Part shown: one piece after another, positions 30,019-64,000 of the stretch
How positions within the stretch are numbered: the stretch's first letter is position 1
Layout: every line of letters begins with the position of its first letter
Assembly: GCA_902780505.1 (NCBI GenBank)
Contig: CACZFN010000017.1
Span: 1 to 64,000 of the forward strand
Direction: 5' to 3'
Origin: an uncultured Ruminococcus sp.
GTDB lineage: Bacteria > Bacillota > Clostridia > Oscillospirales > Ruminococcaceae
DNA: 64,000 bases
Notes under the pieces: generated by a model
The model's input: the letters and a program-made list of their open reading frames with translations, nothing else
The model's database searches: none
Told to the model about the DNA's origin: nothing
Made by a program: the position numbers and the translations under genes

Positions 30019-30029
30019 GGAGTATTGAT

Positions 30030-34482: not shown

Positions 34483-34527
34483 TATTTTGAGTAATTATAT
34501 ATTTTTGATATTACGAAAGGTAAAAAA

Positions 34528-37515: not shown

Positions 37516-37529
37516 AGAAGGTAATGATT

Positions 37530-39158: not shown

Positions 39159-39164
39159 TATTTT

Positions 39165-39824: not shown

Positions 39825-39862
39825 ATAAGAATTGTATAGAGTAGAATGGAGATTATAGATTT

Positions 39863-41361: not shown

Positions 41362-41721
41362 TAAACAAACAGAACGGCTGCACCACTCAGGCACAGCCGT
41401 TGATCCTCAAATATAAACCATACACTCAAACACAGTTTCTCTCGCCATGTATACGAAGCAGTTCTCCAGATTGAGCTTTTTCTCGCATCGGCGGTGATTA
41501 CGGCTTTTTGATAGCAGCTGTCGGTCTGCCTACAGAGCACTACTTGGGGACTGATAGCTTAAACAACATTTTATTTTATCATAAAGGTATTGCATGATTT
41601 TGTTCCCATTATCAAGCCTATAAAGCTTGTCAGAGTATGTAACATCAGAATAGTAAAGATAAATACTGTTTTAGTCTATGTAATAACAAAGTATTATATT
41701 TCCAAAGTAAGGAGACAAATA
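41362..41721. other. Non-coding gap with a hairpin in the defence island
   Basis: 360 bp. AACGGCTG (41373-41380) / CAGCCGTT (41394-41401) forms a stem after the winged-helix gene, with a T-rich tail only on the minus strand. 41400-41560 is richer in GC than its surroundings and looks like foreign or relic sequence. An AT-rich stretch follows, with AAGGAG for the next gene. Confidence 0.45.
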
Positions 41722-42891: not shown

Positions 42892-43023
42892 ATAATTATT
42901 TTGAAACAGATGATATATGAAAACAATATAATCAATCTGCATCCCCAAAACAGAATATATATAACGACAAAAATATGACCAGCATAATATAGCAAATTGC
43001 TATTATAAAGAAGGATATATATT

Positions 43024-45426: not shown

Positions 45427-45478
45427 TGAAATCTGTTAATATGTCTATCAAAATAAAAACGTAGAGATGTCAGAGGTC

Positions 45479-45498
45479 TGTCCATTACTTGTCCATTA
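45479..45498. repeat. Arm-type direct repeats, element 2 right end
   Basis: TGTCCATTA at 45479-45487 and 45490-45498, period 11, identical to the left-end pair. Between here and 45614 there is only a small ATGCAA/TTGCAT hairpin. Confidence 0.6.
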
Positions 45499-45614
45499 AA
45501 GATATAAAAACTTAGCTTAAAATACTTATGATGCAAAAAGTTGCATTAACGCAAATGCCCTAAAATCGGCACTTTATGAAAGATGAGTTATAGTAATATA
45601 ACCCAAAATTTCAA

Positions 45615-45641
45615 TTCAAGTCCCGTCACTCCGACCAGCAG
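45615..45641. repeat. Right attachment site of element 2 (tRNA-Pro T-arm copy)
   Basis: 27 bp from the T-loop through CCA and CAG, identical to the tRNA-Pro end at 20319-20345 plus flank. Divergence just upstream of the T-loop places the recombination point within these bases. Confidence 0.82.
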
Positions 45642-45676
45642 GAAAGTCCGTAAACACGCAGTTTACGGGCTTTTTT
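45642..45676. terminator. Terminator copy of a third element
   Basis: GAAAGTCCGTAAAC, ACGCA, GTTTACGGGC, then six T: nearly the same as 30808-30843. Confidence 0.6.
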
Positions 45677-45792
45677 CTTTGCCTGAAAACTTCGGCTGTC
45701 CATAGCTTGTTCTAATAAGCTGTATCTTCCTCTCTCTTCCGTCCGGATCGGGCGGAGGAGTTTCTTTTTTGGAAAAGTCAAGGACGTTTGCT
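45663..45792 (-). pseudogene. 3' fragment of a third integrase gene
   Basis: The minus strand encodes ANVLDFSKKETPPPD, PDGRERKIQLIRTSYGQ and a different tail to a TAA at 45663-45665. All but the tail is nearly identical to the end of the element 2 integrase. Homology stops abruptly at 45792, where unrelated sequence begins. It is the scar of a third tandem element that lost its interior. Confidence 0.8.
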
Positions 45793-48474: not shown

Positions 48475-50760
48475 CTACTTTATTGAAAGCCTTTCAGGAT
48501 TCTTGCCCACAGCTGATGTCCTTTCATTGACTACAGGTTCGGCATTTATTGCCTTTTGTACCGAATACTTTTCCATCAGCTTCAGCGGCGCTTTTTTGTC
48601 TGTCATAAAATCGATTATATCCGAGTGTGTAATGATCGATGTTGCCTTTACAAAATTCTTTGATGACGCCATCTTGTTGAGCACAAACCTGTCATACTCC
48701 GCAGGCTGCATATCATCATTGCACATTTTTTCAAACACCTTGCTGCCCTTTTCAGTATTTGTAAAGTAATCCTGACAAGCAAGTGCAAGCATAGCCTTTC
48801 TTATCTCAAGCTGTTCCATCGGGGTATATGTCCGGGGATCACTCAAAGCATAGTCAGCCAGCAAGTGTGCGGCGTTGGAAGCGGCATCATTTACCATTGA
48901 TTCATAAGAATTCTTTGAATGCTTAGTTTCCCGATCCATAACCATGCTGTCTATTGCTTCATGGATATCGTCTGCTTCATCGGCTTCGAGCTCTGCTTCT
49001 TTTGCATCCTCCGGTACACCTGAAACCCTTCCTGTGAATTCGGCACCTGCCCCTGCATTTAGTTCATTAAATACCTTTTCGGCATTTTCAAGTATACTTT
49101 CAGTAAGTTTGTTTGCTGATACGAGGGCATCTATCCTCTTTTGTGTTTTCGCATCAGCCTTGCCGTCAAGCAAACCCTGCTGCTGCTTTCTTTCAAAATA
49201 CCTGCCTATCGCTTTCTTAGTCGTGCTGCCTGCTTTTTTAAGGTTATTAATGATCTCTGTCTTTTCTTCCTCGCTTATTTCAGGATCATTATACATATCC
49301 CTGTATGTATTATATGCATCTGACAGCTTATATAAAGACTCTACTGCATCATCATATCTCTTGCTGCCGCGGTAAACGCCCTTTTTAGCAGCCTCTGCTT
49401 CAGCCAGAGCGTCGTCGATCGCATTGGCACTCCTTCGCATACGGTTAGATTCTTCACGTTTTTTTCTGCCTTCACTAAGGTCAATATTACGGTTCTTACC
49501 CTGTGATTCAATAAAATCTATAGTTTCCAGGCTGCTCTTTACCGCGCCCTGTGTAGTACCCGTTTCCTTGCCTGTAGTGACCTGCTTTAACTGCTTGCTG
49601 TACTTATCTGCAAAAGTCTTTATCTTGTTTACTGCCTTATTGGCAGCCTCCATTTCCTTTTCGCTTAAATTGTCTATATCAGGCATAATTTCACGGGCAA
49701 GTTTTCTCAGTTCCTTAATGTCATTTGAGATATGCTTGGGCGAAACATCTTTTGTGGGCAGCTTTTTCTTACCCATAGGTATCATATAACGTGTGCCTAT
49801 GTTTGAAAGGTTCTCAATGATATCCTGCATACGCATAAACTTCTCATTTTCGCTTATTTTGTTGCCATATATATCGTCATCAAGTTCCCACACAAGGCTC
49901 TTGCTTTCCCTGCTTATATTCTTTGCTACGTTTTCTATTCTTTCACTGTAAACAATATCGTTTTCATACTTGCTTATAAGCTTTTCATATTCATCCGCAT
50001 TCTTCAGGCTTTCTACCATGGAATATTTCTTAGGCATCTTTTCACAAAGCTTTTCACCATTGCCGAAACCTATGCCGCGGGTTATATCAAAGCCGTACTC
50101 CTTTGCCTTCGGCGCACCTGATTCATATTCATTTATTGCCTTCTGGGCTTTTTCAGCATCGATCGTACCATTTTCCTTTATAAGCTGTGTTATAAGCTCA
50201 CTCTTTGTTCTGTCGGTCAGTTTTTTGAATTCTGTTTCACCTTTTTTGTAATCGGTCGCCAGAAGTCCGCGCCATTGGTCAGAACCCTTTGTGATCTCGC
50301 TTAACACGCTGCCAAGTGCAGAAACACCGCCGCGTACATATACGCCCTGCGGATCCTTCTGCATAACTATATCGTGTGCTACTTTGTGGGCAAACTTCTT
50401 ATCATTTTTAAGGCCGACGAGTTCTTCCACCTTTCCTTCCACGATATCATTTTCCCACTTTTCTATTTTCCGGCTTGCATCAATAATGCTGTTTACACGT
50501 ATCCTCTGTATTTCAGTAAGCACACCTTTTACTATATCCTTGTTTTCTTCAGTCGGCACACCGTTATTTCTTTTTCCAAGTTCCTGAAAATACCTTATAT
50601 AGCCCGCAGACATACTCTTTTCACTGTCAATAGTCAGGTCATCGCCCTCAAGCACAAATGAATCACATACTATCTGTGCCATGGCAGCATAATCTTTATT
50701 CTTTTCATACTCCCTGAGTGCATTGTATGCTTCCTGCGCATTCATTTTTTTCCCCGCCAT
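48475..50760 (-). CDS. Large helical protein of unknown function, 761 aa
   Basis: I do not recognise it. 761 residues, almost entirely alpha-helical and highly charged (Lys, Glu, Asp), without signal peptide or TM. There is a Gly-containing island (QGVYVRGGVSALGSVLSE) at about 135-152 and a hydrophobic C-terminal helical region (about 640-735). ATG at 50760 with AGGAGGG; upstream codons to 50805 are excluded. It lies downstream of a two-component system and the secretion-ATPase cluster on the same strand, so it may be a cytosolic scaffold, a secreted substrate or an effector. The evidence is positional only. Confidence 0.65.
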   Translation of the reverse strand: MAGKKMNAQEAYNALREYEKNKDYAAMAQIVCDSFVLEGDDLTIDSEKSMSAGYIRYFQELGKRNNGVPTEENKDIVKGVLTEIQRIRVNSIIDASRKIEKWENDIVEGKVEELVGLKNDKKFAHKVAHDIVMQKDPQGVYVRGGVSALGSVLSEITKGSDQWRGLLATDYKKGETEFKKLTDRTKSELITQLIKENGTIDAEKAQKAINEYESGAPKAKEYGFDITRGIGFGNGEKLCEKMPKKYSMVESLKNADEYEKLISKYENDIVYSERIENVAKNISRESKSLVWELDDDIYGNKISENEKFMRMQDIIENLSNIGTRYMIPMGKKKLPTKDVSPKHISNDIKELRKLAREIMPDIDNLSEKEMEAANKAVNKIKTFADKYSKQLKQVTTGKETGTTQGAVKSSLETIDFIESQGKNRNIDLSEGRKKREESNRMRRSANAIDDALAEAEAAKKGVYRGSKRYDDAVESLYKLSDAYNTYRDMYNDPEISEEEKTEIINNLKKAGSTTKKAIGRYFERKQQQGLLDGKADAKTQKRIDALVSANKLTESILENAEKVFNELNAGAGAEFTGRVSGVPEDAKEAELEADEADDIHEAIDSMVMDRETKHSKNSYESMVNDAASNAAHLLADYALSDPRTYTPMEQLEIRKAMLALACQDYFTNTEKGSKVFEKMCNDDMQPAEYDRFVLNKMASSKNFVKATSIITHSDIIDFMTDKKAPLKLMEKYSVQKAINAEPVVNERTSAVGKNPERLSIK

Positions 50761-50857
50761 AGTTATACCCTCCTGAATAATCTGTACTCTATCAGTAATA
50801 CCCATTTACACGCTGAAATGGGTGCAGATCACTTACAGTTTTTATCAGTTATATGAC

Positions 50858-51463
50858 CTATACATCTATATCTCCGAACAGCTTGCTCGGATCAACTGCA
50901 AGCACCTTGGCAAGCTTCATAAAGGTTATAACATCGGGCACACGTTTGCCGCTTTCCCATCGGGATATCGTCTGTACAGTCACATTCATATTCACTGCCA
51001 GTTCGTCCCTTGTCATAGCGCGTTCTTCACGGAATTTGGTTATCTTCCTGCCGATAGTCGCCCCGCCTGCAAACTCCCTTTCTATCATCTTATCGGTTAT
51101 TGACGATATCGGGTAGCGGAGGTTTTCAAGGGCTTCCTTTATCGCCTGTGTTTTGATAGGTTTGAGCAAAAATGCGCTTGCATAGGTCTTATAGCTGTCA
51201 AGCGCGAATTCCGAAAACCCCGTAATGTATATGACATTTGTTCTCGGCTTAACGGCAAGCATCTGCTTTACAAGCTCTATCCCGTTTGCCCCTGGCAGCA
51301 TTATATCAATAAACACGATATCAAAGAGTTCTCTTTCAAAAAGCTTTATTATGCTCTTTGGATCACTTGTGCCGGTTATGTCAGCATTTGGCAAAAGCTG
51401 TTTAAGCTCAAACTGGAGGTCATCAACTATATATCTGTGGTCATCTGCTATAAGTATCTTCAT
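50858..51463 (-). CDS. Response regulator with receiver and XRE DNA-binding domain
   Basis: 201 residues. Receiver domain 1-120 with acidic pocket (ADD, residues 6-8), phosphoacceptor Asp53 (FIDIMLPG), Thr in YITGFSE and Lys in LLKPIKTQ. The output domain is an XRE/Cro helix-turn-helix (ITKFREERAMTRDELAVNMN, then VTVQTISRWESGKRVPDV; about 143-195) instead of the LytTR domain usual for LytS partners. ATG at 51463 lies inside the kinase 3' end (23-bp overlap); an in-frame upstream ATG at 51475 is possible. Confidence 0.87.
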   Translation of the reverse strand: MKILIADDHRYIVDDLQFELKQLLPNADITGTSDPKSIIKLFERELFDIVFIDIMLPGANGIELVKQMLAVKPRTNVIYITGFSEFALDSYKTYASAFLLKPIKTQAIKEALENLRYPISSITDKMIEREFAGGATIGRKITKFREERAMTRDELAVNMNVTVQTISRWESGKRVPDVITFMKLAKVLAVDPSKLFGDIDV

Positions 51464-52745
51464 TATCATTACCATCTTTCATGGGAATTGTTATTTTTGC
51501 CTGTGCCCCCTCAGGCGTGAGCCGCAGGTCAAGGCTTCCGCCGCACTGAAGCTCAAGGCGCTTTCTTGTATTTTCGAGTCCTATGCCGTTATGCCCTTCG
51601 GCGCTCTGCGTGCCGTCTGACGTGCCATTATCTGTTATAAAGACATAGATATTACCGTCTTTTTCATAGCTTTTTATAGTTATTATTCCCCCGCCGCTGC
51701 CAATGCCGTGTTCAACAGCATTTTCGACTATCGGTTCAAGTGAAAGCGGGGGGATCAGGAAATCGGTCTTTTCAAGTTCATATTTGACCTCTACCCTGTT
51801 TTCGTAATCTATCTGCACAAGGGAAAGGTATATCCTTACATTTTTTATTTCCTCGGCAAAGGGTATCATATCAGGGCTTCTGATAGCGCCGATATGTGCT
51901 TTAAGGTAATCGGAAAAGCTGTCAAGGCATTCGACCGCAAGCTTACTGTCACGCCTTGCAAGTGATCTTATAATGCTAAGGGAATTATAAATAAAATGCG
52001 GCTGTATCTGGTTTCTCAGTGTCATAAGGTAGCTTTTGGCAGATTCAAGTTCTTTTTCATAGAGTTTTTGCTTGATTTCCTGCTGGTATATCATTGAAAG
52101 GAAGATATAGTATTCAAGAATACATAAAGCCGTTACTGCATTTACACACCCTACGATGATATACCCGTGTTCAAGCTCAGCTATCAGCAGTGATTGAGCA
52201 CAGATCGCGAATATCACAGCACCCTGTTTAAAACTTTTATGCCTGAAGTAATAGAATGAAAATGCCGCTAACAGCCCAAGGTACAAAAACTGTGTTACAA
52301 AGACAGGTATATTGCCCCCGTTTGAATGCCATAAGTTGTTCTTATCTATATAAAACGGCACCCTGTTACCAAAGAAAACCGTACTGAAATACACTGCATT
52401 GACAACAGCAGGCAGCGCACATAAGCCACGGTACTTCTTGTCGGGGATAACTATAAACACCTCTGTCATTATTATTATCGGCCGCACTATATATATTATA
52501 GCCGAACAATAGGTACGAAGCTTTATATACGTCACAAGTTCCTGCGGCGTTCCTTTTTTTGAAGCAAACCACATTTCCATTGTATCTGCCACTGTTAAAA
52601 ACAGTATAAGCCCTGTTACCAGCCAAAACAGCTGAGATGCAGGGATCTTCTCATTTTTATTCACTTTCATAATGACAACAAGTGCCAGTATTATCATTAA
52701 TGCTATACAGTTAGGGGCACAGTTATTTCTGATAAATTCAATCAT
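51441..52745 (-). CDS. LytS-type sensor histidine kinase
   Basis: 434 residues. About seven TM helices (5-25, 38-58, 82-105, 110-128, 146-166, 172-190, 195-220), a short coiled linker, then the His_kinase domain with phosphoacceptor NQIQPHFIYNSLSIIRSL (His about 250) and the HATPase domain (LSLEPIVENAVEHGI, DNG, GIGLENTRKRLEL). It senses an unknown membrane or envelope signal and phosphorylates the overlapping response regulator. Confidence 0.9.
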   Translation of the reverse strand: MIEFIRNNCAPNCIALMIILALVVIMKVNKNEKIPASQLFWLVTGLILFLTVADTMEMWFASKKGTPQELVTYIKLRTYCSAIIYIVRPIIIMTEVFIVIPDKKYRGLCALPAVVNAVYFSTVFFGNRVPFYIDKNNLWHSNGGNIPVFVTQFLYLGLLAAFSFYYFRHKSFKQGAVIFAICAQSLLIAELEHGYIIVGCVNAVTALCILEYYIFLSMIYQQEIKQKLYEKELESAKSYLMTLRNQIQPHFIYNSLSIIRSLARRDSKLAVECLDSFSDYLKAHIGAIRSPDMIPFAEEIKNVRIYLSLVQIDYENRVEVKYELEKTDFLIPPLSLEPIVENAVEHGIGSGGGIITIKSYEKDGNIYVFITDNGTSDGTQSAEGHNGIGLENTRKRLELQCGGSLDLRLTPEGAQAKITIPMKDGNDNEDTYSR

Positions 52746-52810: not shown

Positions 52811-52847
52811 CAAAAAGACCACAGCAAACAATGTCTGCAATGGTCTT
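52811..52847 (-). terminator. Terminator of the VirB4-cluster operon
   Basis: Minus-strand AAGACCA..GCA stem with TGTGGTCTT followed by TTTTG, after the 181-aa gene. It separates the secretion cluster from the kinase operon. Confidence 0.7.
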
Positions 52848-52858: not shown

Positions 52859-53404
52859 TTATCCTATTCCTCGTTCTATTTCTTCGGGCAAAACACTTTC
52901 AAAGCGTGACAATGCTCTGAATATTGCCGCAAACGAAAGGGGCGATCTTGAACAGTATGCGCTGAGTTTCAATCCCCCATTATCATCATTGCCGTACTCC
53001 TCAAATATAAGTACAACAGGTCTGAACACAAGGCTTTTTATATAGCACACTGCCGCGTCAGGGGCGGTTTCAAGGCTTAGCCTTCTGCCGATATCAGCCA
53101 TAGCCTTTGTAACACGGTATACAGCCTGCTGATTGTTTTTAAGGCTTGTCTTGTAATAAAAGGTTTTTTCTGTCATTCCGTAAACTATAGTATTACCTGC
53201 ACCGTCGCCGACGCCGAATGGCGTTATCCACCTGCCGCTTCCTGCACTTAGTGCCCCGCCTGATGAAAGGGTGAAGTTTCCAAGAAGGATATGCTTGACT
53301 TCGTTTTTTCGCGCCTTAGCCGCTTCCTTTTCAAGCTTTTTAATTTCCTTATCCGAAAGTTCCCTTTCAGGCTGACTGACATTTTCCTTTATATCTTCAT
53401 TCAT
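52859..53404 (-). CDS. Hypothetical cytosolic protein, 181 aa
   Basis: Charged helical N-terminus (about 1-35), then a beta-rich domain with Gly/Ser-rich turns (LGNFTLSSGGALSAGSGRWI, TPFGVGDGAGNTIVYG) and a helical end. No signal peptide, TM helix or known family. Starts 2 bp after the stop of the membrane-anchored gene and is the last gene before the terminator, so it belongs to the VirB4/STAS/giant-protein operon. Confidence 0.6.
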   Translation of the reverse strand: MNEDIKENVSQPERELSDKEIKKLEKEAAKARKNEVKHILLGNFTLSSGGALSAGSGRWITPFGVGDGAGNTIVYGMTEKTFYYKTSLKNNQQAVYRVTKAMADIGRRLSLETAPDAAVCYIKSLVFRPVVLIFEEYGNDDNGGLKLSAYCSRSPLSFAAIFRALSRFESVLPEEIERGIG

Positions 53405-53406
53405 GA

Positions 53407-54459
53407 TCAGGAATTCTCCTCCGGTTTACTTTCTTCCGAGCTTTCATCATCAGTATCGCTGCTGTCAGTATCACTGCTGTCAGTATCACTGCTGTCAGTA
53501 TCACTGCTATCGGTATCCTGCTTTTTGTCATCAGCCTTGCTCTCGTTATCTTCCTGCGAGCTGCTGTCTGTTTTTTCAGCTTCCTCAGCCTTTTCAAGCT
53601 CTGTCTGCTTGTGTATAGAAAGCTCCCATTTCATGTCATCTGACATCTTCATATCAAGTTCCTGACTTATGCCAAGTGATTCACTCGATATTACAAGTCT
53701 GCTGTTTGAAAGTATCTCAAAGGCTTTATCAGGATCAAGGTCTGCCACAGCGGAAATGTCTTTTTCTATTGTCATAAACTCAACATTGTTTTCGTCAACG
53801 CCGCTATATATGTTATAAAACCCTGCCGGGATACTCCCGTCGTTTATCGGTAAGATCACCCAGTCACCGCCCGCCGGAAAATACACATTATTTCCATCGA
53901 GCAGGAAAGGCGTATCGGTGTCAAGTGCGCCTGCATTTGAAGTATTTTCCTTTATCTCTGCAAGTTCAGCTTTTAACTTGTCATCTTCTTCATAAACACG
54001 TATATCTGCAACGACAGTAACAGCATTATATGCATAGCCTTTTATCTCGCCGCCCCTTGTAAAGGTAAGTGTTGCATACCCTATAGAGTTCGGGGAAATA
54101 TCCACACATATCTTATTATCTGCTTCTTCACCGTCCTGCTCAGCAGTAATAACGCTTTTTTCGGCATCGTCATTTTCCATACTCCACGAGCTGTCAGGTG
54201 ACTTTGCGCCGTCAAGTTCTATCCTCAGCTTACCGTCATATGTTTTAGTGATCTTTACCGGGTAATCACTACCCTCAAAATAGGCATTCTCCTCGTTCTT
54301 TACGGATTCTTCATATGAATCAAGAGGAGAAAGCGGTTTGTCGGAACCGCCGCCCTTTTTCATCACCACAACGACCGCAACAATAAGCAGCGCAAGAATA
54401 CCGAAGCTGACAAGTGCTGCTATTTTATGCTGTTTTATGTTTCTTATAAAATTATTCAT
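53407..54459 (-). CDS. Membrane-anchored extracellular protein with Ser/Asp repeat tail
   Basis: 350 residues. Short cytosolic start, one TM helix (IAALVSFGILALLIVAVVVVM, about 13-33), an extracellular beta-rich region (about 55-280), then an acidic low-complexity tail in which SDTDS recurs with a 5-residue period. The family is unknown. The tail resembles that of the giant secreted protein encoded just upstream (20 bp gap), so the two may share a location or a calcium- or matrix-binding property. Confidence 0.65.
   Translation of the reverse strand: MNNFIRNIKQHKIAALVSFGILALLIVAVVVVMKKGGGSDKPLSPLDSYEESVKNEENAYFEGSDYPVKITKTYDGKLRIELDGAKSPDSSWSMENDDAEKSVITAEQDGEEADNKICVDISPNSIGYATLTFTRGGEIKGYAYNAVTVVADIRVYEEDDKLKAELAEIKENTSNAGALDTDTPFLLDGNNVYFPAGGDWVILPINDGSIPAGFYNIYSGVDENNVEFMTIEKDISAVADLDPDKAFEILSNSRLVISSESLGISQELDMKMSDDMKWELSIHKQTELEKAEEAEKTDSSSQEDNESKADDKKQDTDSSDTDSSDTDSSDTDSSDTDDESSEESKPEENS
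53451..53510. repeat. Four 15-bp tandem repeats in the tail of the anchored protein
   Basis: CAGTATCRCTGCTGT four times without spacers (last copy with one change); encodes the SDTDS repeats on the minus strand. Likely length-variable between strains. Confidence 0.85.
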
Positions 54460-54478
54460 AGCTTACTTTCCGCCGGGA

Positions 54479-57400
54479 TCAGCTTTCTTCACTGCTGTCC
54501 TGCTGACTTTCTTTATTTGATTGCGATTCATCCGTCTTTGAGGAAGATTCATCAGCTTTTGAAGATTCGTCAGCCGCGCCGGACTCCTTGCCGGAGTCCG
54601 CGCTGCTGCTTTCATCTGTGTAGCTTTCATCAGGCTTGCTTTCGCTGCTGCCGGAAGAACTATCATCAGTCTGTTGCGCAGTGCTGCTGTCATCAGTCGA
54701 TGATGGATCGTCCTTACCTTCACCCTCGGATTCAGTTTTTTCTTCCTCCTCCTTTTCGGGAACAGGTACATTTATAACTATAACATCCTGGGTATTGATA
54801 TTCTCCTTAGCGGTAACTGTTATCGTATATGTCAAAGGAACAGCCCCGTTATTGACAGGAACATAGAAGGAGAACTTATTACCGCTTACAGCATAGGTTT
54901 CTTCAGGCATATCTGCGGGTTCGTTGTTTACGATAGACTGTATCTGCATATCATATCCGCCTTCAACAGACACCTGAACAGTGACCGGCTTTCCGCCGTC
55001 CATAGTAAACGCCATTCTATGCTTTGTAACTGTACCCATATACTTGTTATCCTTAGTCACATACGTAACAAGCTTAACAGTTTTAAGGGACAGCTTTTGT
55101 CCGTCGGTCGTAAATTCATCATTTACTACCCTATTGATCTCCTTATCGAGCATCAGCCAGCCGTCGATACGTTCTATCTTCCATGTACCCTCTGAAGGCT
55201 TTAGCTCAATAGCTGTAACTTCTTCACAATCAGGAATGAACATTTTAACCGTTGCAGTCTGCCCTGTAAGGAACTTCTTATGATCTGCATCAGCCTGGAT
55301 ATACGTCTTCAGATCCTCTATCTCAACTACCTGTTCTGCCTTATTGTGATCCTTATAGTAGATCTTAGCTGCGATCACACTGTTATTGCCGGTTTCAGTC
55401 TTACCTTCGGCATCAGCAGTCTTGATATTGAGTTCAAGCGGTGCGACGCCGCCCTCACCGAGCATACCTGTTTTGGTCATTTTCTTTTCAGTAACATAAT
55501 TAGGTACTTCATCTATTCTGCTGTCGCAGCTGTAAACATTAAGGAGTTTATCCCCGGTAGTCTGTATCTGGCTTGTTTCTTCGTCGATCTCCACATCAGA
55601 ATAACTGTAATTGAATGCGAGTGCACCTCTTACATCAGCTTTTACAGAACCGAACATACCTATCTTATACCCCGTTATTTCACTTACATTCGGGACACTG
55701 AACGGTATATCGACAACCAAGCCCGGTGAGAGCTTCTTCAGCCCTGTATCACCCAGATATACATATTCTGATGTATATTCATTTTCACCGTGGTCAAGAG
55801 TTGAACGGTACTTGATAGCTACTGCTATATCATTTACATTCGAGTTATCGTCATTAGGTGCTATCAGGTGAGAATCCGCCGTTTTATCGCCGAACGATAA
55901 TGAAAGGACCTGTTTGTTCTTTGCAAATTCCGAATTGGAATTGCTTGGCGAAGCCCTCAGTCCGAGCATTGCGGACGATCCGCCGAGATTTATGGTATAT
56001 CTGCTGACTATAACATCATCTCTGACCTGCTCAACTATTGCGTGGTCAAACACTACCTTCGTACTTCGGCAGCTCAGCCACAGTGATGACAGGCTTTGCA
56101 TATCAGGTGCAGAAAGCCCTGTGTAGTAGTACATAGCATCTTCAGTACCGCTGCCGTAGATCTTCATGGCACTCTGCTTTACCTGCATTACTTTTGCACC
56201 GGGTGCAGTGTACTGAGCAGCAATGCTGAGTGATGTATCGTTTATCTGATTGGATGTTTCTGTCGGGTAAACATATATATTGAGAGTATCATTTGATGAT
56301 GTAGGTGTTCTCTCGACCGCCGATATCCATGTTTTATTCTCGTTCCAGGTTATTTCCTTCTCTGTAAGCTTTATCTTCTGCTTCTGCATAGCACCGGCAG
56401 GAAGTGTCATAGTCAGGGGGTAGCTCGATACCATCTGACAATGTGTTTCAATATCCATATCACGGTAGTATTCTTCGTACTTGGAAATGGAAACATTACC
56501 TGTATCAGAAAGTATCCTTGAAAGTGACAAGCCGCTTATAACCCAGTATCCGGTACCCTTGCCCCTGTTTGTCGCATAGAACGTCATACTTGAGATCATC
56601 TTCACATCTGCAAGCGGCGGAAGAATAAATCTGTCCGTATGACAAGGTCTGAGCATCCAGTTAGTATCGGTCACGGTACCCATATTGCTGTAAAGCGAAG
56701 CATCACTGCCATCATATGATGAACTGTAAACCTTAGGTGTCTTATTCATATATTCATACATACGCTTTGCCACATCAAAGCTCTTGGATTGCGGCTGATT
56801 GCTTGTATCAATATAATCAATAGTACAGGAAACGCTTGCTTCAAACGGGTAATTATTGACCGGCCACGGATCAGCCGTCACCTCACAAAGCAGGTATATA
56901 ACGCTTCTCTTTTTGCTTACTCTGAATTTCTTGGCAAGTGAGTTGATAGATCTGCCTTTACGTCCGAGCGTGGATTTCTCCTCACTCTTATCATAGTAGT
57001 CAATATCTATCCAGCCGACATTATCAAAAACATATTCCATACCCGCGCCGCCGCCTGTCTGCTCAGCCACGGTGATCTCCTCGATATTGAGTTTATCGAA
57101 GATCTCGCTGTCCTCCGAAACATCCTCGGGGATTATTCTTATACTCTGAAGCTCACCGTAATCACGGTTTACCTGTATTTCAAAATTCTCGTGCTGTCCT
57201 GCGCGGAAGCCGTCAGATGACAGCTGCTGGTTAGCAAGAACGAAGCCGCTTCTTCCGTTTTTGAACATAAGCTGGAAGTAAAATTGGTTAGTAGAGCCCG
57301 AATCACCGTTTGCATTAGCGCTGTCGGGATCATCTGCCACCTTGACATCTATATCATATGTTTTTCTTGTCTTTACATAGCCGAGGTTCCACTGTGTCTG

Positions 57401-59803
57401 TTCATATGTCATTCTGTTTTTAACAGTGTTGAAATCTATTTCCTCAGCCTTTATTACAGTACCCGCACCGGTGTTGATAGAATAATTTTCACCCGGGGTG
57501 AACAGCAATGAAACATCTATCGGGAAAGGCGGAACGACTGTCTTGATAACAGGCCTTGTAAAGCGGTAAGGAGATGAATCCGTACCTGCTTTTAGGTCCT
57601 GTGCATAAGCCCTTCTCTTGCCGATACCGTCAAGAACTGCTACTGAGATTGATGCAAGCTGCCATTCATCTGCAAATTCGTCAAGGGAAACCTCAACACT
57701 CGTTACAGCTGCCGCATCAGGCAGGTCTACAGGGAACTCGACATAGTTACCGAGCGAAAGCCCATAGGTATACCCGAAATTATCAAGAGTCTTGAATTTA
57801 CTCGGCCAGTAACCGAGGTAATTCTGGACCTGATCCTTTACATTATATTCCTGTGAAGCTTTGACATTGCCGTTTGAATCCTGATAATATATCTTAGCCT
57901 TTATGACACCTGTTGTTTCCGAGCCCTTGATATCACTTGTTTTAAGGCGTATCAGGAAGTTGCCCGTATACCCGGAAGCGATAACAGGATCGCCGTCCTT
58001 ATACTTTGCAAGGCTAAAGGTATCGGAAGTATTTGCATTTATTATATACCCGTTTTTCTGCGAATTAGTATAATAGAACGAAGGGCTTTTTGATGAATAC
58101 GCAAATGCATAGCTATAGCTTTTGAGTGTCTTATCGCCCAACTTGCCGTCCTGTGTATTTGACATACGGCAGGTACCCTGATAAACACTGAAGCCTGACA
58201 GAGCTATCCTGTCCTTATCAAGTGCAGCGATCAGGGAACTATCTATCTTTTTACTATTCACAAACCCTATGCCGCAGTTTGAAGCAAGTATATCTCTTGC
58301 AGCCTTTGCAACATATACTCTTGTGGTTATGATCGATGCAAAATCGGGCAGGCAGGCTGTAAAGGCAAGCTCGTCGCCCCTTTGTGCCAGACCGATCGTG
58401 TTTACTGAAACTCCGCTTTCTTTATACTGCCCGAGCACTGAAAGCAGAACAGGCATAGTAACGTTTCTTGTCCAGCCGTTTATATCCTTATATTTTATCT
58501 CAACTGCAAGATCCTCAGCTATCGAACCTGCATCAGGCGCACTTACAGCCGAATCGTTTCTCAGTAATGATTCGATACCCGCATCAGTGGTATCAGCAAA
58601 ATTCATACAGATCGAATAGAGATCCTTAAAGCCTGTTGAAGTGCTGACCGGCTTTTCAGGCTTTGTAAGTGCAAAATAGACAGAATCATCGCCGCCGACG
58701 TTTACAAGTGTATCGCCGTTAGCGGAAAGGGTAAGTGTACCGCTTTTCTTTTTGGTAAGCTGGCATATTATTTCCTTTTCAAGCGAAAGGAAATACTTGC
58801 CTGAATAGTAGCCGTATTCATTATAGCCGCCTATTTTGTTTACCTTGCTGACAGAAAGCCCCTGCACCGTCCATTTGCCGTTTGACATAAACACCTCGAC
58901 ACCTGTCACAGATGTTATCGGTGCCTCGGTCTTGAACAGGAATTCGTCAACGCCCCATGAAGAAAGTGCATTTTCTGTCAGGGCATTTTCGTTTATCTTA
59001 TAGTTCATCTCGGCAAGGTAGTTATGCCTTTTTGCAAAAGTACCTTCTGCTGTAAGCGAGACCTTCTTACTCTCGTCGCGGTAGAGCTTTGTCTCGCTTG
59101 TTATACTGCCGGTGAACTTGCCGTTGCTGGTCAGTGTTTTCAAGAATTCTTTTCTTGCCGCCTCAAGATCAGACTCGCTTCGGGTAGAGATAGTCTGAGA
59201 GTACGATTGTACCGCTGTTCTCTGGCCAATTGAATAGTAGCCCTTAAATGTTGTGGCATACCATACATTCTTATTGGTAACAGTACCCTTTTGATTATTG
59301 ATATAATCCCTTGTTGCTTCAAGAGAATGTATCTTCGGGAATATATACTTTGTCTGCGCTACAGCATTTTCACCCTCACCTACAGTATAGCGTATAGCAA
59401 AATACTCAACGCTCGTGCCGGCGCTTATGCCTGTGGCCGCAGTCAGTGAGTATAGGTTCTCAGAGGAATCCACCGGTATGGCATACTGATCCTGAGTATA
59501 CTCATCAACACTAAGTGCAGCAGAAGTCGGTGAATCGCCGCCGCTGACATCATTTTCCACCCAGTCATCACCTGTTACGGCCTCGACTTTCTGCATCTTG
59601 CCGTCTTTCCAGACAGTAATGCCCTCGCTCTCGTCCTCAGTAGGTTCGGGAACTACCTCGGAGGTTATATCCGTTGCTTCCCCGTCGCCGGACGCCGCAT
59701 AAACAAGCTCATATGACAGCACACTCGGCAGCATGGCAAAAGCCATAGCCGCTGCAATTATTCTTTTTGCTGTATTTGTCAGTAGAGCATTCTTCTTTTT
59801 CAT
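54479..59803 (-). CDS. Giant secreted modular protein, 1774 aa
   Basis: Signal peptide (IIAAAMAFAMLPSVLSYELVYAAS, about 14-37), then about 1600 residues of beta-rich modules and a 100-residue Ser/Asp/Glu tail without LPxTG or a TM anchor. A module recurs about six times: a strand like VIKAKIYYQD or VIAAKIYYKD, a linker, LxxGxxVEFPVDLPD or MFIPDCEE, a strand like VTSVEVSL or VTAIELKP, then EWQLASISV, TWKIERIDG or KWTVQGLSV. This pattern recalls PLAT or carbohydrate-binding beta-sandwiches. The start overlaps the STAS stop by 4 bp. It is probably surface-displayed or secreted. Confidence 0.75.
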   Translation of the reverse strand: MKKKNALLTNTAKRIIAAAMAFAMLPSVLSYELVYAASGDGEATDITSEVVPEPTEDESEGITVWKDGKMQKVEAVTGDDWVENDVSGGDSPTSAALSVDEYTQDQYAIPVDSSENLYSLTAATGISAGTSVEYFAIRYTVGEGENAVAQTKYIFPKIHSLEATRDYINNQKGTVTNKNVWYATTFKGYYSIGQRTAVQSYSQTISTRSESDLEAARKEFLKTLTSNGKFTGSITSETKLYRDESKKVSLTAEGTFAKRHNYLAEMNYKINENALTENALSSWGVDEFLFKTEAPITSVTGVEVFMSNGKWTVQGLSVSKVNKIGGYNEYGYYSGKYFLSLEKEIICQLTKKKSGTLTLSANGDTLVNVGGDDSVYFALTKPEKPVSTSTGFKDLYSICMNFADTTDAGIESLLRNDSAVSAPDAGSIAEDLAVEIKYKDINGWTRNVTMPVLLSVLGQYKESGVSVNTIGLAQRGDELAFTACLPDFASIITTRVYVAKAARDILASNCGIGFVNSKKIDSSLIAALDKDRIALSGFSVYQGTCRMSNTQDGKLGDKTLKSYSYAFAYSSKSPSFYYTNSQKNGYIINANTSDTFSLAKYKDGDPVIASGYTGNFLIRLKTSDIKGSETTGVIKAKIYYQDSNGNVKASQEYNVKDQVQNYLGYWPSKFKTLDNFGYTYGLSLGNYVEFPVDLPDAAAVTSVEVSLDEFADEWQLASISVAVLDGIGKRRAYAQDLKAGTDSSPYRFTRPVIKTVVPPFPIDVSLLFTPGENYSINTGAGTVIKAEEIDFNTVKNRMTYEQTQWNLGYVKTRKTYDIDVKVADDPDSANANGDSGSTNQFYFQLMFKNGRSGFVLANQQLSSDGFRAGQHENFEIQVNRDYGELQSIRIIPEDVSEDSEIFDKLNIEEITVAEQTGGGAGMEYVFDNVGWIDIDYYDKSEEKSTLGRKGRSINSLAKKFRVSKKRSVIYLLCEVTADPWPVNNYPFEASVSCTIDYIDTSNQPQSKSFDVAKRMYEYMNKTPKVYSSSYDGSDASLYSNMGTVTDTNWMLRPCHTDRFILPPLADVKMISSMTFYATNRGKGTGYWVISGLSLSRILSDTGNVSISKYEEYYRDMDIETHCQMVSSYPLTMTLPAGAMQKQKIKLTEKEITWNENKTWISAVERTPTSSNDTLNIYVYPTETSNQINDTSLSIAAQYTAPGAKVMQVKQSAMKIYGSGTEDAMYYYTGLSAPDMQSLSSLWLSCRSTKVVFDHAIVEQVRDDVIVSRYTINLGGSSAMLGLRASPSNSNSEFAKNKQVLSLSFGDKTADSHLIAPNDDNSNVNDIAVAIKYRSTLDHGENEYTSEYVYLGDTGLKKLSPGLVVDIPFSVPNVSEITGYKIGMFGSVKADVRGALAFNYSYSDVEIDEETSQIQTTGDKLLNVYSCDSRIDEVPNYVTEKKMTKTGMLGEGGVAPLELNIKTADAEGKTETGNNSVIAAKIYYKDHNKAEQVVEIEDLKTYIQADADHKKFLTGQTATVKMFIPDCEEVTAIELKPSEGTWKIERIDGWLMLDKEINRVVNDEFTTDGQKLSLKTVKLVTYVTKDNKYMGTVTKHRMAFTMDGGKPVTVQVSVEGGYDMQIQSIVNNEPADMPEETYAVSGNKFSFYVPVNNGAVPLTYTITVTAKENINTQDVIVINVPVPEKEEEEKTESEGEGKDDPSSTDDSSTAQQTDDSSSGSSESKPDESYTDESSSADSGKESGAADESSKADESSSKTDESQSNKESQQDSSEES

Positions 59804-60099
59804 TTTATATTCAACATCTCCGAAAATCCGGTCATTTCCAAAACCTCTGCAACATACGGGGCAATGTTCTTCACAGTAAGCTCACCGCCGCTATTCCTAA
59901 CCTTCATATAGAGTTTTTTAAGGGATCTCAGCCCTGCGCTAGAAATATACTTCAGATCCTGCATATTGAGCGTTACATTTTTAAACCGGTCAGCAACCTG
60001 TAAAAACACATTTGTGACCTCGTCTGCATTTTTGGTATCAAGCCTCCCCGAAAGGATAAGCTCGCCTTCCTCTCCTCTGTTCACAAGTTTTATATCCAT
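59800..60099 (-). CDS. STAS-domain anti-sigma-factor antagonist-like protein
   Basis: 99 residues, a single STAS domain: GELILSGRLDTKNADEVTNV, NLTMQDL-like strand, then YISSAGLRSLKKLYMKVRNS with the SSAGL site where SpoIIAA-type proteins are phosphorylated on Ser. It starts 2 bp after the VirB4-like gene and overlaps the giant protein gene by 4 bp. No partner kinase/anti-sigma of the SpoIIAB type is visible in the window, so it may act in partner switching with a remote protein or as a structural STAS module. Confidence 0.85.
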   Translation of the reverse strand: MDIKLVNRGEEGELILSGRLDTKNADEVTNVFLQVADRFKNVTLNMQDLKYISSAGLRSLKKLYMKVRNSGGELTVKNIAPYVAEVLEMTGFSEMLNIK

Positions 60100-60101
60100 T
60101 A

Positions 60102-63100
60102 TCAGTAGCTCCTTCTCTTTCTTGACTCCTTAACGTGAGTCATAAGTTCTTCAAGCGATATTTCCATTGTATTAACGTCGATCTCTTCCATACGTTCTTC
60201 AAGCGTCATCTCGCCGTAACTGTCAAGCTGCTCGTCAAGAAGTGCCATGATATCGAACTTGGGTGTGAAGCTGTCATCTTCATCTTCGTCCTCATCATCG
60301 TCGTCGTAATCCGCATCATCGTCGTCATCATCTTCCGGCTCATCATACTCCGGTTCTTCGCTTTCAGATTCTTCATATGCGTGCTCGCTGTACTCCTGCT
60401 TATCTGTCTGATCGTCTTCTTCGTCATCATACAGATCAACATCATCAACATCGGGAACATTGAACTCAGGCATAGTCGGCAGCTCGTCTTCATCATGATC
60501 ATCGTCGTACTCAGGCTCATAGGAAGGTTCTTTATGATCTTCCGAAGCAGCAGGTGCGGGAGTGACAGGTGATGCAGCAACAGGCTGTGTGCCGAACTGC
60601 TGTGCCATTTCCTTCTTGACTTCCTCACGGATAGCGGAAATAATAGCTTCCATATCCATTGCAGGTGCAGGTGCAGCCGCAGGCTGTACAAACTGAGGTA
60701 TTATCGGCTGCATAACAGTCGTGCCGTCCGGCATAAGCACAGGCTGGACCATCATAGGCTGAACTGTCGGCTGCACGCCGAAATTAAACCCTGTATTTGT
60801 ATTATTAACATTATTTACATTATTATAGTTATACTCGCTTCTATCAGTAATACCCTGATTATCATCATTTGGGTGCATGGAAGGTTCTTCAGTATTTCCC
60901 TGATACGAAAGCTTTTCCTCAGGCACAGACATAGAGTCTGCTTCCTCGGCAGATATCTCAGTAAAAGTGAAGTCCGAGCTGTCAAAACCGTCACCTTCGT
61001 CATCATCATATGCATAATAATTTGATGATGACATTCTGTCAGCAAGATAAGCATCATGGAGCTGTCTGCTGTCCGCCACGAAGTTTTCCCATGTTCTCTC
61101 CCCTGCTTCACCGCCGAAATAAACCGTCTGGTAGTCAGGCTGCTCGAACATATCGACCATAGTCTGCGGAACTTCTATCTTAAAGGAAGAACGGCTTGTC
61201 GGGCTCATAACAGTGAACGCCATACCGCGCGGTGCGGTCACTATCTGATCCTGCTCAACTTCATTTATGCCGCCCGCCTTTTCATAAAGCTTGCAAAGGT
61301 CATCCATATCATTCGGTGCAAGCCCGAAGATAAAGCTGTACTGGCAGGCATTGATGATAGCAGTTGATTTTCTTGCTATTTCTTCCGAGCCCACAAAGTC
61401 CTTGATATTCTGTGTGATAACTATCTGCATACCGTTATACTTACGTATACGCTTGGCAAGCTGGAACATAAAGTCAAGTGCCACAGGGAATTTTGTGTCT
61501 ATAAATACGTGTGCTTCATCAATAACCACGACAATCTTTCTGCTAAGCCCGTACTTACGGTTATAATCACGGTTTTTGATTATTTCGTTGTCAATATACT
61601 TCAGCACAAGAAGCATCTGTGCGTTTGCGATCGTCGAGTTACGGTTTGAAAGAAGTGACTGGAAGTTGAAAACTGAGAAGTTTTCGTCCGTCGTGATAGA
61701 GGACGGGCCGTTCCAGATGTTTGAATTTCTTCCGCCTGTTGCAAACTTGGAAACATAGTTCATAAGTGTTTGCAGCATACTTCTTAAATATTCATTGCTT
61801 GTACGCTGGAAATCCTCAAGAACAAGGTCATAAAGGTCATCAAATATCGGATAATCTGACGGGCCCAACTTTGAAAGATCGGTTTCCATAGTTATACCGA
61901 AGTTGGTATACAGCCTTTCAACGAGTGAATTGAGGTATTCAAGCGCTTCCTTGTCAACGTCGGGAAGTATCTGCTTGAAGAACTCCTCAAGGAACTGAAG
62001 GTGTGCTGCGTAACCTGTACCGATATTATCCTCGCTCTCGTCATCTTCAAGTGTTGTGATGATATTGAACGGGTTAAGTCTGCCCGATGTGGCATTGCCG
62101 ACATTTATGATCTTGCCGTGAAGTGTATGGGCAAGCTCGGTATACTCGTTTTCAGGATCAAGGATGAATATCTTGGCATCTTCGGAAGCCATATTTGTAA
62201 GCAGGCTCTTTGTACCGTAGGATTTACCGGAACCCGACTTACCTATGATGACCATATTTGAGTTTACTCTTTCAGAATCCCTGCGGAAGAAGTCGATTAT
62301 TACAGGAACACCGTCCTGAGTACCGAGCCTTATACCGCCGACGTCAGATACCCTCGCATATATCCACGGATACATACCCGCAACAGTATTTGAAGGCATA
62401 CCGCGCCCGTCCTTCAGGAACGGATCATAAGCCGATATCTGCGAGCCTATAAAGCCCTCGATCTGTGCAAAATCAAGGCCGTTTAAACGCATACCCGTTT
62501 CCTGCCAGATACGTCTTACAGTTTTCTTCATATCCGCAATAACAGGCAGGAAGGAATTCTTTACCCTTTCGGGGTTGCCCCATTCGCTCGTCTTTACAGA
62601 GTCATACATTGTTATATATATGTTTACTGTAAGCAGTGTTTCATTATCCTGCTGCAAGGTCACAAGCAGGGTGCTGAGTGTTTCGATATGCGACTGCAAT
62701 TCGATTATCTTTGAATCTATACCTGTAGAGCTTAGCTGCCCCCTCAACTCCTGAAGTGAACGGTCGATAGCCTTGATAGACCTCGTTCTTTCCATAGGGG
62801 TGACTTTTACTACGACCTTGGTTGCGGGGACGGACATTACGCCCGCAAGCCACGCATCACCGACCTCCGAAGGATAGCCTACAACGCGCAGTTGGTGGGT
62901 ATACACTTCGTTTATCATCGCCCTCTTTGAATTGAAGGTCACGCTTTCAGGCATAGCCCATTTTACATAATCTTCGGGATCTATCCGGTCTATTTCAGAT
63001 TCTTCAAAATCAAGTGTATTGGTATACTTTAAGAATATAGCAAGGTCCTTATCGGTCTCTATCCTGCGCACAACAAGCTCACCCTGTGTAAGAGTATTGA

Positions 63101-64000
63101 GGGCAGAATTTGTATCTATTATAAGCTGCCTTTTGTCTATATTGAAAAGCACGAGATAGTAAAAAGGCTGAATTACCTTGTTTTCTTCACAAAGCGAACG
63201 CATTTCGTTGATACGCTCGTATTGTATCTCAACTCTTGCCTTTAATTCTTCCTCGGTAAGGAAGCCTTTTTCGTAGGAGTTTTTAAGCGCATCAAGCTTA
63301 TCGTATTCCCGGTCAAGATACTCGGTATATACGATAGGCCTGTCGATCTTTACTATGTTTGCGGCATACTCGATCCTCAATGATCTGAGGATCTTGCCGA
63401 GCGCACCCTCTATAGATGCATTACGCCTATAAATGCTGAAAAAACGGAACTCAACGGGATCGATCTCAATGACCGTCCCGTAGTATTTTCCGTTATATTC
63501 CACAAAGCCGTCAGCTATACCTGTAAAAGGCATAACTTCATCGACATCTTTTTCATTGTGGTATGTGTCTTTATTATCAGATTTTTTCTTTTTCTTCTGC
63601 TTTGCCTTCTCCTGCCTTTTCTGCCAGATCGCATTTTTCTCCTCGTCAGTAAGCTTGTCACTGTCAAGAAGTTCGTCTTCTTCCTTTTTCTTCTTCTTTT
63701 CAGCCATCGCACTCTCTATGCTTTCGCGCAGAGAAACCTCGTCCTCAGGCTCAAACTTATCGGAGAAGAATTCATTCCACTTATCCCCCCGCCTGCCTTC
63801 GTGGTTCTTGTTGACAAGGTGTTTGTCGGAAAAAGTACGCCAGAAGCGTTTAGGCAGTGCAAGGTACTTGAGGATATTGAGCACCGATTTGAAATTCGGA
63901 ACTCCGTCAAGCCTTACAAGAAGTGTACCGCCGACCGCTATTATCCCTATGGCAATGTACAGCCTTCCCGGGATAGTAGAGAGGATAACAAGCCCTACGA
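60102..64000 (-). CDS. VirB4-family secretion ATPase with PrgI-like N-terminus, truncated by window edge
   Basis: The frame is open to the edge. At least 1260 residues follow a GTG at 63884, and upstream in-frame codons encode a TM helix (STIPGRLYIAIGIIAVGGTL) plus a PrgI-like stretch (VPNFKSVLNILKYLALPKRFW), so a PrgI-VirB4 fusion is likely. The VirB4 part has an N-terminal CagE/TrbE-like domain, Walker A IIGKSGSGKSYGTKSLL (about 550 from the GTG), IFILDPENEYTEL and Walker B VVVIDEAHVFID (about 780). The last 350 residues are Asn/Pro/Gln-rich, then strongly acidic. It energizes protein or DNA export. No relaxase is nearby. Confidence 0.85.
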   Translation of the reverse strand, partial: VGLVILSTIPGRLYIAIGIIAVGGTLLVRLDGVPNFKSVLNILKYLALPKRFWRTFSDKHLVNKNHEGRRGDKWNEFFSDKFEPEDEVSLRESIESAMAEKKKKKEEDELLDSDKLTDEEKNAIWQKRQEKAKQKKKKKSDNKDTYHNEKDVDEVMPFTGIADGFVEYNGKYYGTVIEIDPVEFRFFSIYRRNASIEGALGKILRSLRIEYAANIVKIDRPIVYTEYLDREYDKLDALKNSYEKGFLTEEELKARVEIQYERINEMRSLCEENKVIQPFYYLVLFNIDKRQLIIDTNSALNTLTQGELVVRRIETDKDLAIFLKYTNTLDFEESEIDRIDPEDYVKWAMPESVTFNSKRAMINEVYTHQLRVVGYPSEVGDAWLAGVMSVPATKVVVKVTPMERTRSIKAIDRSLQELRGQLSSTGIDSKIIELQSHIETLSTLLVTLQQDNETLLTVNIYITMYDSVKTSEWGNPERVKNSFLPVIADMKKTVRRIWQETGMRLNGLDFAQIEGFIGSQISAYDPFLKDGRGMPSNTVAGMYPWIYARVSDVGGIRLGTQDGVPVIIDFFRRDSERVNSNMVIIGKSGSGKSYGTKSLLTNMASEDAKIFILDPENEYTELAHTLHGKIINVGNATSGRLNPFNIITTLEDDESEDNIGTGYAAHLQFLEEFFKQILPDVDKEALEYLNSLVERLYTNFGITMETDLSKLGPSDYPIFDDLYDLVLEDFQRTSNEYLRSMLQTLMNYVSKFATGGRNSNIWNGPSSITTDENFSVFNFQSLLSNRNSTIANAQMLLVLKYIDNEIIKNRDYNRKYGLSRKIVVVIDEAHVFIDTKFPVALDFMFQLAKRIRKYNGMQIVITQNIKDFVGSEEIARKSTAIINACQYSFIFGLAPNDMDDLCKLYEKAGGINEVEQDQIVTAPRGMAFTVMSPTSRSSFKIEVPQTMVDMFEQPDYQTVYFGGEAGERTWENFVADSRQLHDAYLADRMSSSNYYAYDDDEGDGFDSSDFTFTEISAEEADSMSVPEEKLSYQGNTEEPSMHPNDDNQGITDRSEYNYNNVNNVNNTNTGFNFGVQPTVQPMMVQPVLMPDGTTVMQPIIPQFVQPAAAPAPAMDMEAIISAIREEVKKEMAQQFGTQPVAASPVTPAPAASEDHKEPSYEPEYDDDHDEDELPTMPEFNVPDVDDVDLYDDEEDDQTDKQEYSEHAYEESESEEPEYDEPEDDDDDDADYDDDDEDEDEDDSFTPKFDIMALLDEQLDSYGEMTLEERMEEIDVNTMEISLEELMTHVKESRKRRSY

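Follow-up and report, generated by a model that had tools for sequence, protein, structure and literature searches.

Gene organization at the end of the window

The DNA analysed here (the window) comprises 64,000 nucleotides from an uncultured Ruminococcus sp. and is the start of a 152-kb contig, CACZFN010000017.1; positions past 64000 are given on that contig. Its end carries an operon of five genes on the minus strand, running from 52859 to the window end, which encodes the VirB4 ATPase of a type IV secretion system (T4SS) and four further proteins. The features are as follows (aa, amino acids):

60102..64000, gene continuing to contig 64094, minus strand: VirB4 ATPase with a PrgI-like N-terminal membrane segment, 1330 aa, P-loop_TraG match
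59800..60099, minus strand: STAS protein of the anti-sigma-antagonist type, 99 aa (STAS PF01740, 2.9e-16; TIGR00377)
54479..59803, minus strand: giant secreted protein, 1774 aa, with signal peptide, beta-sandwich domains including one PLAT domain, and a Ser/Asp/Glu-rich tail
53407..54459, minus strand: membrane-anchored protein, 350 aa, with N-terminal helix, beta-sandwich domains and a Ser/Asp tail
52859..53404, minus strand: small cytosolic protein c181, 181 aa, without curated family; its cluster occurs in 33 of the 87 gene sets described below
52812..52847, minus strand: intrinsic terminator at the operon end (stem AAGACCA...TGGTCTT and T-run), found by reading

The close linkage of the five genes, noticed in an earlier reading made from the sequence alone, was confirmed by the intergenic distances: 2 bp between VirB4 and STAS, an overlap of 4 bp between STAS and the giant protein, then 19 bp and 2 bp. 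The terminator that the same reading placed at the end of the unit was also borne out, since the full stem and T-run (52847-52812) could be read directly; the automated terminator scan listed the inner stem alone (52838-52824). The VirB4 gene actually begins at contig 64094, 94 bp beyond the end of the window, and encodes a protein of 1330 aa against 1260 aa for the GTG-initiated open reading frame (ORF) within it. No Pfam family exceeded its cut-off in the scan of the 350-aa and 181-aa proteins.

Components of the type IV machine

The VirB4 protein matched P-loop_TraG in Pfam at about 1.7e-20 to 1.9e-20, and scored 533.9 bits, below the cut-off of 590, against the NCBIfam Mbov_0397 family from the integrative and conjugative elements (ICEs) of mycoplasmas. 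Alignment with six relatives revealed open frames and an invariant Walker A motif (GKSGSGKS) and DEAH motif in all six. The PrgI-like hydrophobic N-terminus fused to VirB4 was recognized by eye, the Pfam PrgI family being unmatched. Beyond the window the following genes were identified:

Contig 64139-67417, minus strand: VirB6-type protein (NF045848, MMCAP2_0566; 152.6 against a cut-off of 90)
Contig 67421-68386, minus strand: immunoglobulin (Ig)-like membrane protein, 321 aa, with signal peptide, C-terminal membrane helix and weak Ig-like matches below cut-off
Contig 68407-70428, minus strand: VirD4 coupling protein (NF045973, CD1115; 286.3 against a cut-off of 250)
Contig 70666-71010, minus strand: VirB2-like protein, 114 aa, named from topology and position only
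Contig 71264-71803, minus strand: extracytoplasmic function (ECF) sigma factor, upstream of the VirB2-like gene

The co-directional gene order is therefore VirB2-like, VirD4, Ig-like membrane protein, VirB6, PrgI-VirB4, STAS, giant, anchored beta-sandwich protein and c181. The sequence-only reading had seen no coupling protein, which is correct for the window, VirD4 being encoded just beyond it; of the VirB6, VirB8 and VirD4 homologues that it proposed to look for upstream of 64000, the first and the last were found and VirB8 was not. Because VirD4, VirB6 and the VirB2-like protein follow past 64000, an isolated VirB4 was rejected and the locus is taken to encode a nearly full monoderm type IV machine. 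The second AAA_10 match of the genome was read as an FtsK-like protein, so that one clear VirB4 was found in the genome.

Between the ECF sigma and VirB2-like genes (contig 71.0-71.2 kb; about 13040-13260 of excerpt L003, minus strand) lies a gene for a small protein, possibly a soluble anti-sigma factor, that resembles ones in relatives and at L213:1610-1930. An inverted repeat, AAGGCAATACCGC...GCGGTATTGCCTT, is present at L003:12430-12666, between the VirB2-like gene and VirD4; a search of the window with a 15-base piece of this repeat gave no match.

Search for relaxase, integrase and attachment sites at the locus

Pfam scans of the operon and nearby genes, and of 18 neighbours scanned singly at contig 46.5-93.8 kb (a further sigma factor covered, one 94-aa ORF at 83.9 kb left out), revealed no relaxase or integrase. 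No exact direct repeat of at least 15 bp was found between the flanks at 45.7-52.9 and 71.0-96 kb, imperfect repeats being outside this test; the longest was 14 bp, the same as in shuffled sequences. No tRNA gene was found at contig 58-98 kb. Because relaxase, integrase and exact attachment-like repeats were not found at the locus, the T4SS is not counted as that of a conjugative ICE of the MPF FATA-like type, and an ordinary ICE was rejected. The earlier statement that relaxase and integrase are lacking thus stands for the locus and not for the whole window, which holds a relaxase gene at 22014-23270 within a separate tRNA-integrated element; the only PF03432 matches on the contig (22827-23210) are inside that gene. 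As signs of an ordinary ICE the earlier reading had named relaxase, VirD4 and attachment sites just past the window; VirD4 alone was found.

The relaxase gene and two integrase genes belong to elements at 20.3-45.7 kb (from a scan listing 25 of 39 families), and the T4SS operon lies outside these elements. In a relative, G113 (G and L numbers are our own designations of genomes and loci), the nearest relaxase is 34 kb from VirB4 and 3.4 kb from a serine recombinase, apparently in an element of its own. A search with PF03432, the only relaxase family used, found a relaxase in 10 of 14 system-bearing genomes and none in G039 (64% complete), G079 (88% complete), G206 and G207 (no completeness given for the last two). 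In G180 the T4SS contig (597 kb) gave no PF03432 match. Within 30 kb, PF03432 accompanied 10 of 22 generic VirB4 genes from 12 family genomes with unrelated VirB4 (one of the ten below the family cut-off) and none of seven of this clade (G000, G113, G039, G079, G180, G206 and G207; G192 and G071, with contigs of about 31 kb, and G201-G205, whose contig was unmatched, were left out).

Conservation and distribution

Among 197 genomes of the family, VirB4 of any kind was detected at 1e-20 in 54 and VirB4 of this clade in seven (at least 48% identity, others at most 34%). The giant protein was present in six, all among the seven clade carriers. Six of the seven genus genomes carry the clade VirB4, and the one lacking it is 58% complete. 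A scan of GTDB contigs for VirB4 relatives (E <=1e-3) gave at least 280 stretches, the best 80 of which were read as loci with ten-kb flanks, beyond which a relaxase could still lie. By title they come mostly from rumen and gut Ruminococcus and Lachnospiraceae, and also from Pseudobutyrivibrio and Eubacterium. Apparently cultured carriers, again by title, are R. flavefaciens YRD2003, Eubacterium ruminantium FB3002 and Lachnospiraceae C10, LC2019 and YSB2008.

The 80 loci and seven family genomes gave 87 gene sets, a few being the same contig counted twice. Clustering revealed VirB4 in 84 of them, VirB6 in 70, the giant in 69, the Ig-like protein in 64, VirD4 in 59 and STAS in 52. Flank length was then allowed for in the 77 loci with the VirB4 cluster, a gene anywhere in the locus counting as present. 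Where the upstream flank reached 8 kb or more (n=49), VirB6 was found in 48, the Ig-like protein in 45, VirD4 in 44 and the VirB2-like protein in 30; where the downstream flank did so (n=50), the giant in 48, STAS in 35, the anchored beta-sandwich protein in 31, c181 in 27, an anti-sigma-type kinase in 20 and a SpoIIE-type phosphatase in 13. In all 68 gene sets with both VirB4 and the giant (no fewer than three of them the same contig counted twice) the two genes are on one strand, and the giant lies at most 500 bp downstream of VirB4 in 57, so that the association exceeds chance. The synteny survey suggested with the sequence-only reading thus showed that the gene set recurs among these best 80 loci. 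Genes, order and conservation are read directly from the DNA, and the titles and abstract openings found in the literature held no description of this gene set.

The giant protein gave no tblastn match in 72,556 plasmid records and no close relative in an IMG/VR pattern scan, which is able to find close relatives only. The ten best plasmid VirB4 proteins listed were 27-32% identical over 40-51% of the protein, and the in-window part of VirB4 matched 42 phage-collection records, all below 60% identity. With plasmid relatives of VirB4 distant, the giant unmatched in plasmids and no close relative in IMG/VR, a phage or plasmid origin was rejected.

A family of the same class with small genomes (about 0.8-1.2 Mb) also carries a clade-related VirB4 (L191-L195, from G506, G331, G251, G377 and G475; also G212 and G307). 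In G212 the gene next to VirB4 encodes a protein of 3399 aa.

The giant and anchored proteins

The N-terminus of the giant protein is a signal-peptide-like stretch by eye, and no LPxTG-type motif was matched. Its sole Pfam domain is PLAT (PF01477; 27.0 bits against a cut-off of 23, residues about 811-969), for which the fold test agreed; in the structure model, residues 531-652 gave a second C2-like match. A PLAT repeat protein was rejected, the profile finding one copy in each of the 14 sequences listed out of 60 aligned. A search of a giant segment against profiles of solved structures revealed nothing convincing. With a Sec-type signal peptide of its own, the protein does not have to be exported through the ATPase, and it is more likely part of a surface apparatus than cargo. 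The 350-aa protein was modelled by AlphaFold2 with a mean confidence (pLDDT) of 84.4, and its structural neighbours, all weak, are mostly Ig-like and S-layer proteins.

The STAS protein

The STAS protein passed the cut-off of the anti-sigma-antagonist superfamily TIGR00377 (65.7 bits against 53.45) and did not reach that of the SpoIIAA equivalog TIGR02886 (41.5 against 114.75). Its serine motif is ISSAGL, and SSAG is present in 52 of 54 clustered members. The gene is situated between VirB4 and the giant in 42 of the 68 gene sets holding both. In several relatives, G071 for example, c181 is followed by genes for kinase and phosphatase; in the distant G467, STAS and a kinase gene are beside VirD4. 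In the present genome the closest genes with Pfam support for an anti-sigma-type kinase and a SpoIIE-type phosphatase adjoin another STAS gene, 18-21 kb upstream of VirB4.

RsbV/SpoIIAA partner switching uses a STAS protein with a serine motif, a HATPase kinase and a SpoIIE-type phosphatase. The same three elements are encountered here; the difference is that the switch is linked to a T4SS operon and that the local sigma factor is of the ECF type, not the usual sigma-F/B. ECF sigma factors are not usual partners of STAS-type switches. Since relatives often have linked genes for an anti-sigma-type kinase and a SpoIIE-type phosphatase, control of the T4SS by partner switching is judged likely from gene content. 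The earlier proposal that the STAS protein sets the activity of the system is plausible on the same account, such genes being linked in a good part of the relatives.

STAS genes also occur near the T4SS, with other accessory genes, in the distant relatives G547 (L207) and G467 (L198), which suggests an old link. At contig 86.8-92.5 kb (L004:8770-14497) are genes for two PP2C-type phosphatases, two FHA proteins (one with a trypsin-like domain) and a Ser/Thr kinase, a cluster that recalls the threonine-phosphorylation control of secretion systems.

Candidate substrates

Of the genes considered as possible cargo, one lies in the window:

48475..50805, minus strand: candidate substrate, a large charged helical protein of 776 aa without signal peptide, with paralogues elsewhere in the genome

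Two further large, charged, unannotated proteins without signal peptide (561 and 305 aa) are encoded at the other edge of the locus, contig 73.3-76.1 kb. We call these proteins MP-type after their common start; they comprise several sequence families, and many begin with MP(K/N) and have a Q/N/P/K-rich tail. The 776-aa protein matched no family in Pfam, PHROGs or PADLOC, and a search of its family against solved-structure profiles gave nothing convincing. Its profile matched four places in this genome, eight in G113, 13 in G192, three in G204 and one each in G201 and G203.

Reading of the hit regions indicated about nine MP-type proteins in this genome, on five contigs. Those of 776, 561, 305, 770, 484, 813, 550 and 402 aa resemble one another's families; a 1615-aa protein was counted as the ninth from its tandem position only. 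None of the nine has a Pfam family, and 52 of 55 MP-type proteins collected lack a membrane-helix-like stretch. On contig C3 of this genome a secreted gene of the s730 type is followed after 151 bp by the 402-aa member; in relatives the place of the s730-type gene is between VirB2 and VirD4. G516 has five large unannotated proteins of this kind: the genes for three are interspersed with those for c181, kinase and phosphatases in a run on one strand, and the other two genes immediately precede VirB2. A hydrophobic stretch is present in one of the five. The MP-type proteins are regarded as better substrate candidates than the giant.

A C-terminal motif [LVIMAFK]G was weakly enriched (27 of 55 against 76 of 259 controls) and is not claimed as a signal. 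A defence or phage function of the unknown proteins was rejected: PADLOC gave one weak JAB match among six (c181, E 0.0045) and PHROGs none among seven.

Interpretation of the locus

The reading that we prefer, at about an even chance on sequence evidence, is that of a resident chromosomal T4SS that may have lost the DNA-processing half of conjugation and been repurposed for protein export. In the mechanism that we infer, VirD4 would select cytosolic MP-type proteins, and VirB4 and VirB6 would pass them across the membrane; the most likely cargo would be the fast-diverging large helical proteins without signal peptide encoded at the locus and at scattered sites. The giant PLAT and anchored proteins would reach the outside by Sec, where they may bind a target or serve as the surface part, adhesive or spanning the wall. 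Phosphorylation would control the STAS protein, turned off by the kinase and on by the SpoIIE-type phosphatase, and this protein would set expression or activity. A more specific form, slightly less probable than not, is a dedicated effector-delivery T4SS of commensal Clostridia of rumen and gut with a wide set of signal-less effectors that evolve fast (about nine in this genome), a giant PLAT adhesin and partner switching, in some 80 genomes and probably more. The earlier proposal, a resident type IV-related system that exports or assembles a large surface structure, is kept as regards residence and the lack of relaxase and integrase among the scanned neighbours; the giant as substrate of the ATPase is doubtful in view of its signal peptide.

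Several observations weigh against this reading. Export itself is deduced from the gene set, and no VirB8 equivalent was found. The topology candidate, the 350-aa protein, is unsupported: its model consists of a helix and beta-sandwiches and VirB8 is absent from its structure match lists, though such absence excludes nothing. Pfam scans of the operon genes, in which large parts of the giant and VirB6 match no family, showed no VirB1-type wall hydrolase, the rest of the genome being outside that search. The VirB4 gene of G197, one of six in the genus, has an in-frame stop, and the relaxase-distance contrast (0 of 7 against 10 of 22) is weak, suggestive rather than strong.

Other points concern the cargo. 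The 776-aa profile was unmatched in G071 and G202, two of eight system-bearing genomes searched; it was found in three of the 197 family genomes, all system-bearing and all of one genus. Among loci with room, 14 of 30 hold a gene passing the MP-type filter and 16 do not, and the filter was also passed by four of 38 other large genes on the contig and by six of 64 on stretches from distant relatives. At class level a broader profile, searched in 391 genomes, recovered this genome and one weak match without the system and missed 13 of 14 VirB4-positive genomes, and class-level co-occurrence was set aside as uninformative. Divergence of the candidate cargo is so rapid that it prevents a clean test of association. 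Of the MP-type proteins, 44 of 55 have proline among their last 15 residues, compared with 68 of 259 controls, and Q, N, P and K make up a fraction of 0.43 of their last 25 residues, compared with 0.21 in the controls. This difference in tail composition is a lead only, since the 55 sequences are related to one another and were in part picked by hand, and the controls are mechanically called ORFs with a minimum length of 150 aa.

Among the alternatives, the machine may, in line with the earlier reading, mainly assemble or anchor the giant as an adhesive layer or pilus for attachment to fibre or between cells, the MP-type proteins being unrelated. This is unlikely, though the giant is the most constant accessory protein (48 of 50), PLAT and beta-sandwich domains suit binding and the gene set includes a VirB2-like protein. 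Also fitting is a protein with 14 ricin-B lectin stretches, encoded just upstream of VirD4 in L101 (3-4271, its start cut by the locus edge) in the place that s730 has in others. The giant has its own signal peptide, and VirD4, a substrate receptor that a pilus alone would not require, is present in 44 of the 49 loci with upstream room. Somewhat less probable again is a helper conjugation machine that kept VirD4 and transfers relaxase-bearing mobilizable elements, such as that at window 20.3-30.8 kb, in trans. It would account for the sole clear VirB4 in a genome with three PF03432 relaxase matches that have no other VirB4 beside them, and for a VirD4 of a conjugative family; it has no need of the giant, STAS, kinase and phosphatase genes, four of the 14 searched system-bearing genomes have no PF03432 relaxase (other relaxase families being outside the search), and G000 and G113 share the T4SS but have different mobilizable elements.

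A decayed or partly mobile ICE that recently lost relaxase and integrase is very improbable: mycoplasma ICE families are the nearest to VirB4 and VirB6, and G197 has its in-frame stop, against which stand the intact frames and ATPase motifs of six aligned relatives, the recurrence across genera and the lack of tRNA, integrase and flank repeats reported above. A DNA release or uptake machine of the gonococcal type is equally improbable, since VirD4 and VirB4 could move DNA but no relaxase or other DNA-processing gene was seen among the scanned operon genes and neighbours.

Comparison with known systems

Thermoanaerobacter belongs to the Bacillota. It is among the carriers of MOBless T4SSs, chromosomal T4SS ATPases without relaxase for which mostly protein secretion was proposed in the part of the source available to us (Guglielmini et al. 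2011, PMC3158045). The locus described here shares with them chromosomal T4SS ATPases and the absence of a relaxase from the locus; the verified cases in the accessible part of that paper are proteobacterial, whereas this is a monoderm set with STAS switch, giant PLAT protein and anchored beta-sandwich protein. The T4SS of Patescibacteria (PMC12102498, as far as the available text goes) is likewise of monoderm type, chromosomal and mostly relaxase-less with VirB2-like proteins; the terms STAS, PLAT and Ruminococc are absent from that text, and host lineage and accessory genes differ. The locus preferred here as a protein exporter works like a MOBless T4SS and recalls the Patescibacteria system, with a different accessory set.

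The nearest curated VirB4 and VirB6 families are those of Mycoplasma and Spiroplasma ICEs (Mbov_0396/Mbov_0397, MMCAP2_0566), which, unlike this system, are mobile elements. According to the sections available of a December 2025 review (PMC12857230), mycoplasma ICEs have no VirB1- and VirB8-like components. The same sections describe the Streptococcus suis 89K T4SS, also Gram-positive, for which there is evidence of protein export; 89K differs in being a pathogenicity island with VirB1 and VirB8 and a subtilisin-like protease as reported substrate. Whether Gram-positive T4SSs arose for the dedicated translocation of effectors is described in these sections as a question of long standing, and it is asked whether T4SSs besides 89K export effectors. 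A recurring system with apparently cultured carriers and a list of candidate substrates makes this question testable in bacteria that are harmless. If the preferred reading is right, a DNA-transfer machine of rumen and gut bacteria would seem to have become a fixed part of the chromosome that serves protein export, equipped with a giant surface protein and an on/off switch, and, as a speculation, gut bacteria would have a new route to act on neighbours or protozoa.

Adjacent genes and elements

Downstream of the operon terminator a separate unit encodes a two-gene pair:

51441..52745, minus strand: sensor histidine kinase (His_kinase 1.9e-17); its cluster occurs in 22 of 87 gene sets
50858..51475, minus strand: response regulator with helix-turn-helix domain (Response_reg 7.5e-18); its cluster occurs in 21 of 87 gene sets

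Some relatives also have the histidine kinase gene close to the T4SS. A 58-bp direct repeat containing a tRNA 3' end marks the boundaries of the elements at 20.3-45.7 kb; its copies at 20301 and 30758 are 100% identical, and a part copy is present at 45615. The first (window 20301-30815) is a mobilizable element in the tRNA gene with perfect 58-bp repeats, an integrase, the PF03432 relaxase and, by eye, an ABC-type ATPase. The second (window 30758-45710) uses the same attachment repeat and carries an integrase, Eco57I-type restriction-modification-like genes and a gene for an AAA_13 protein.

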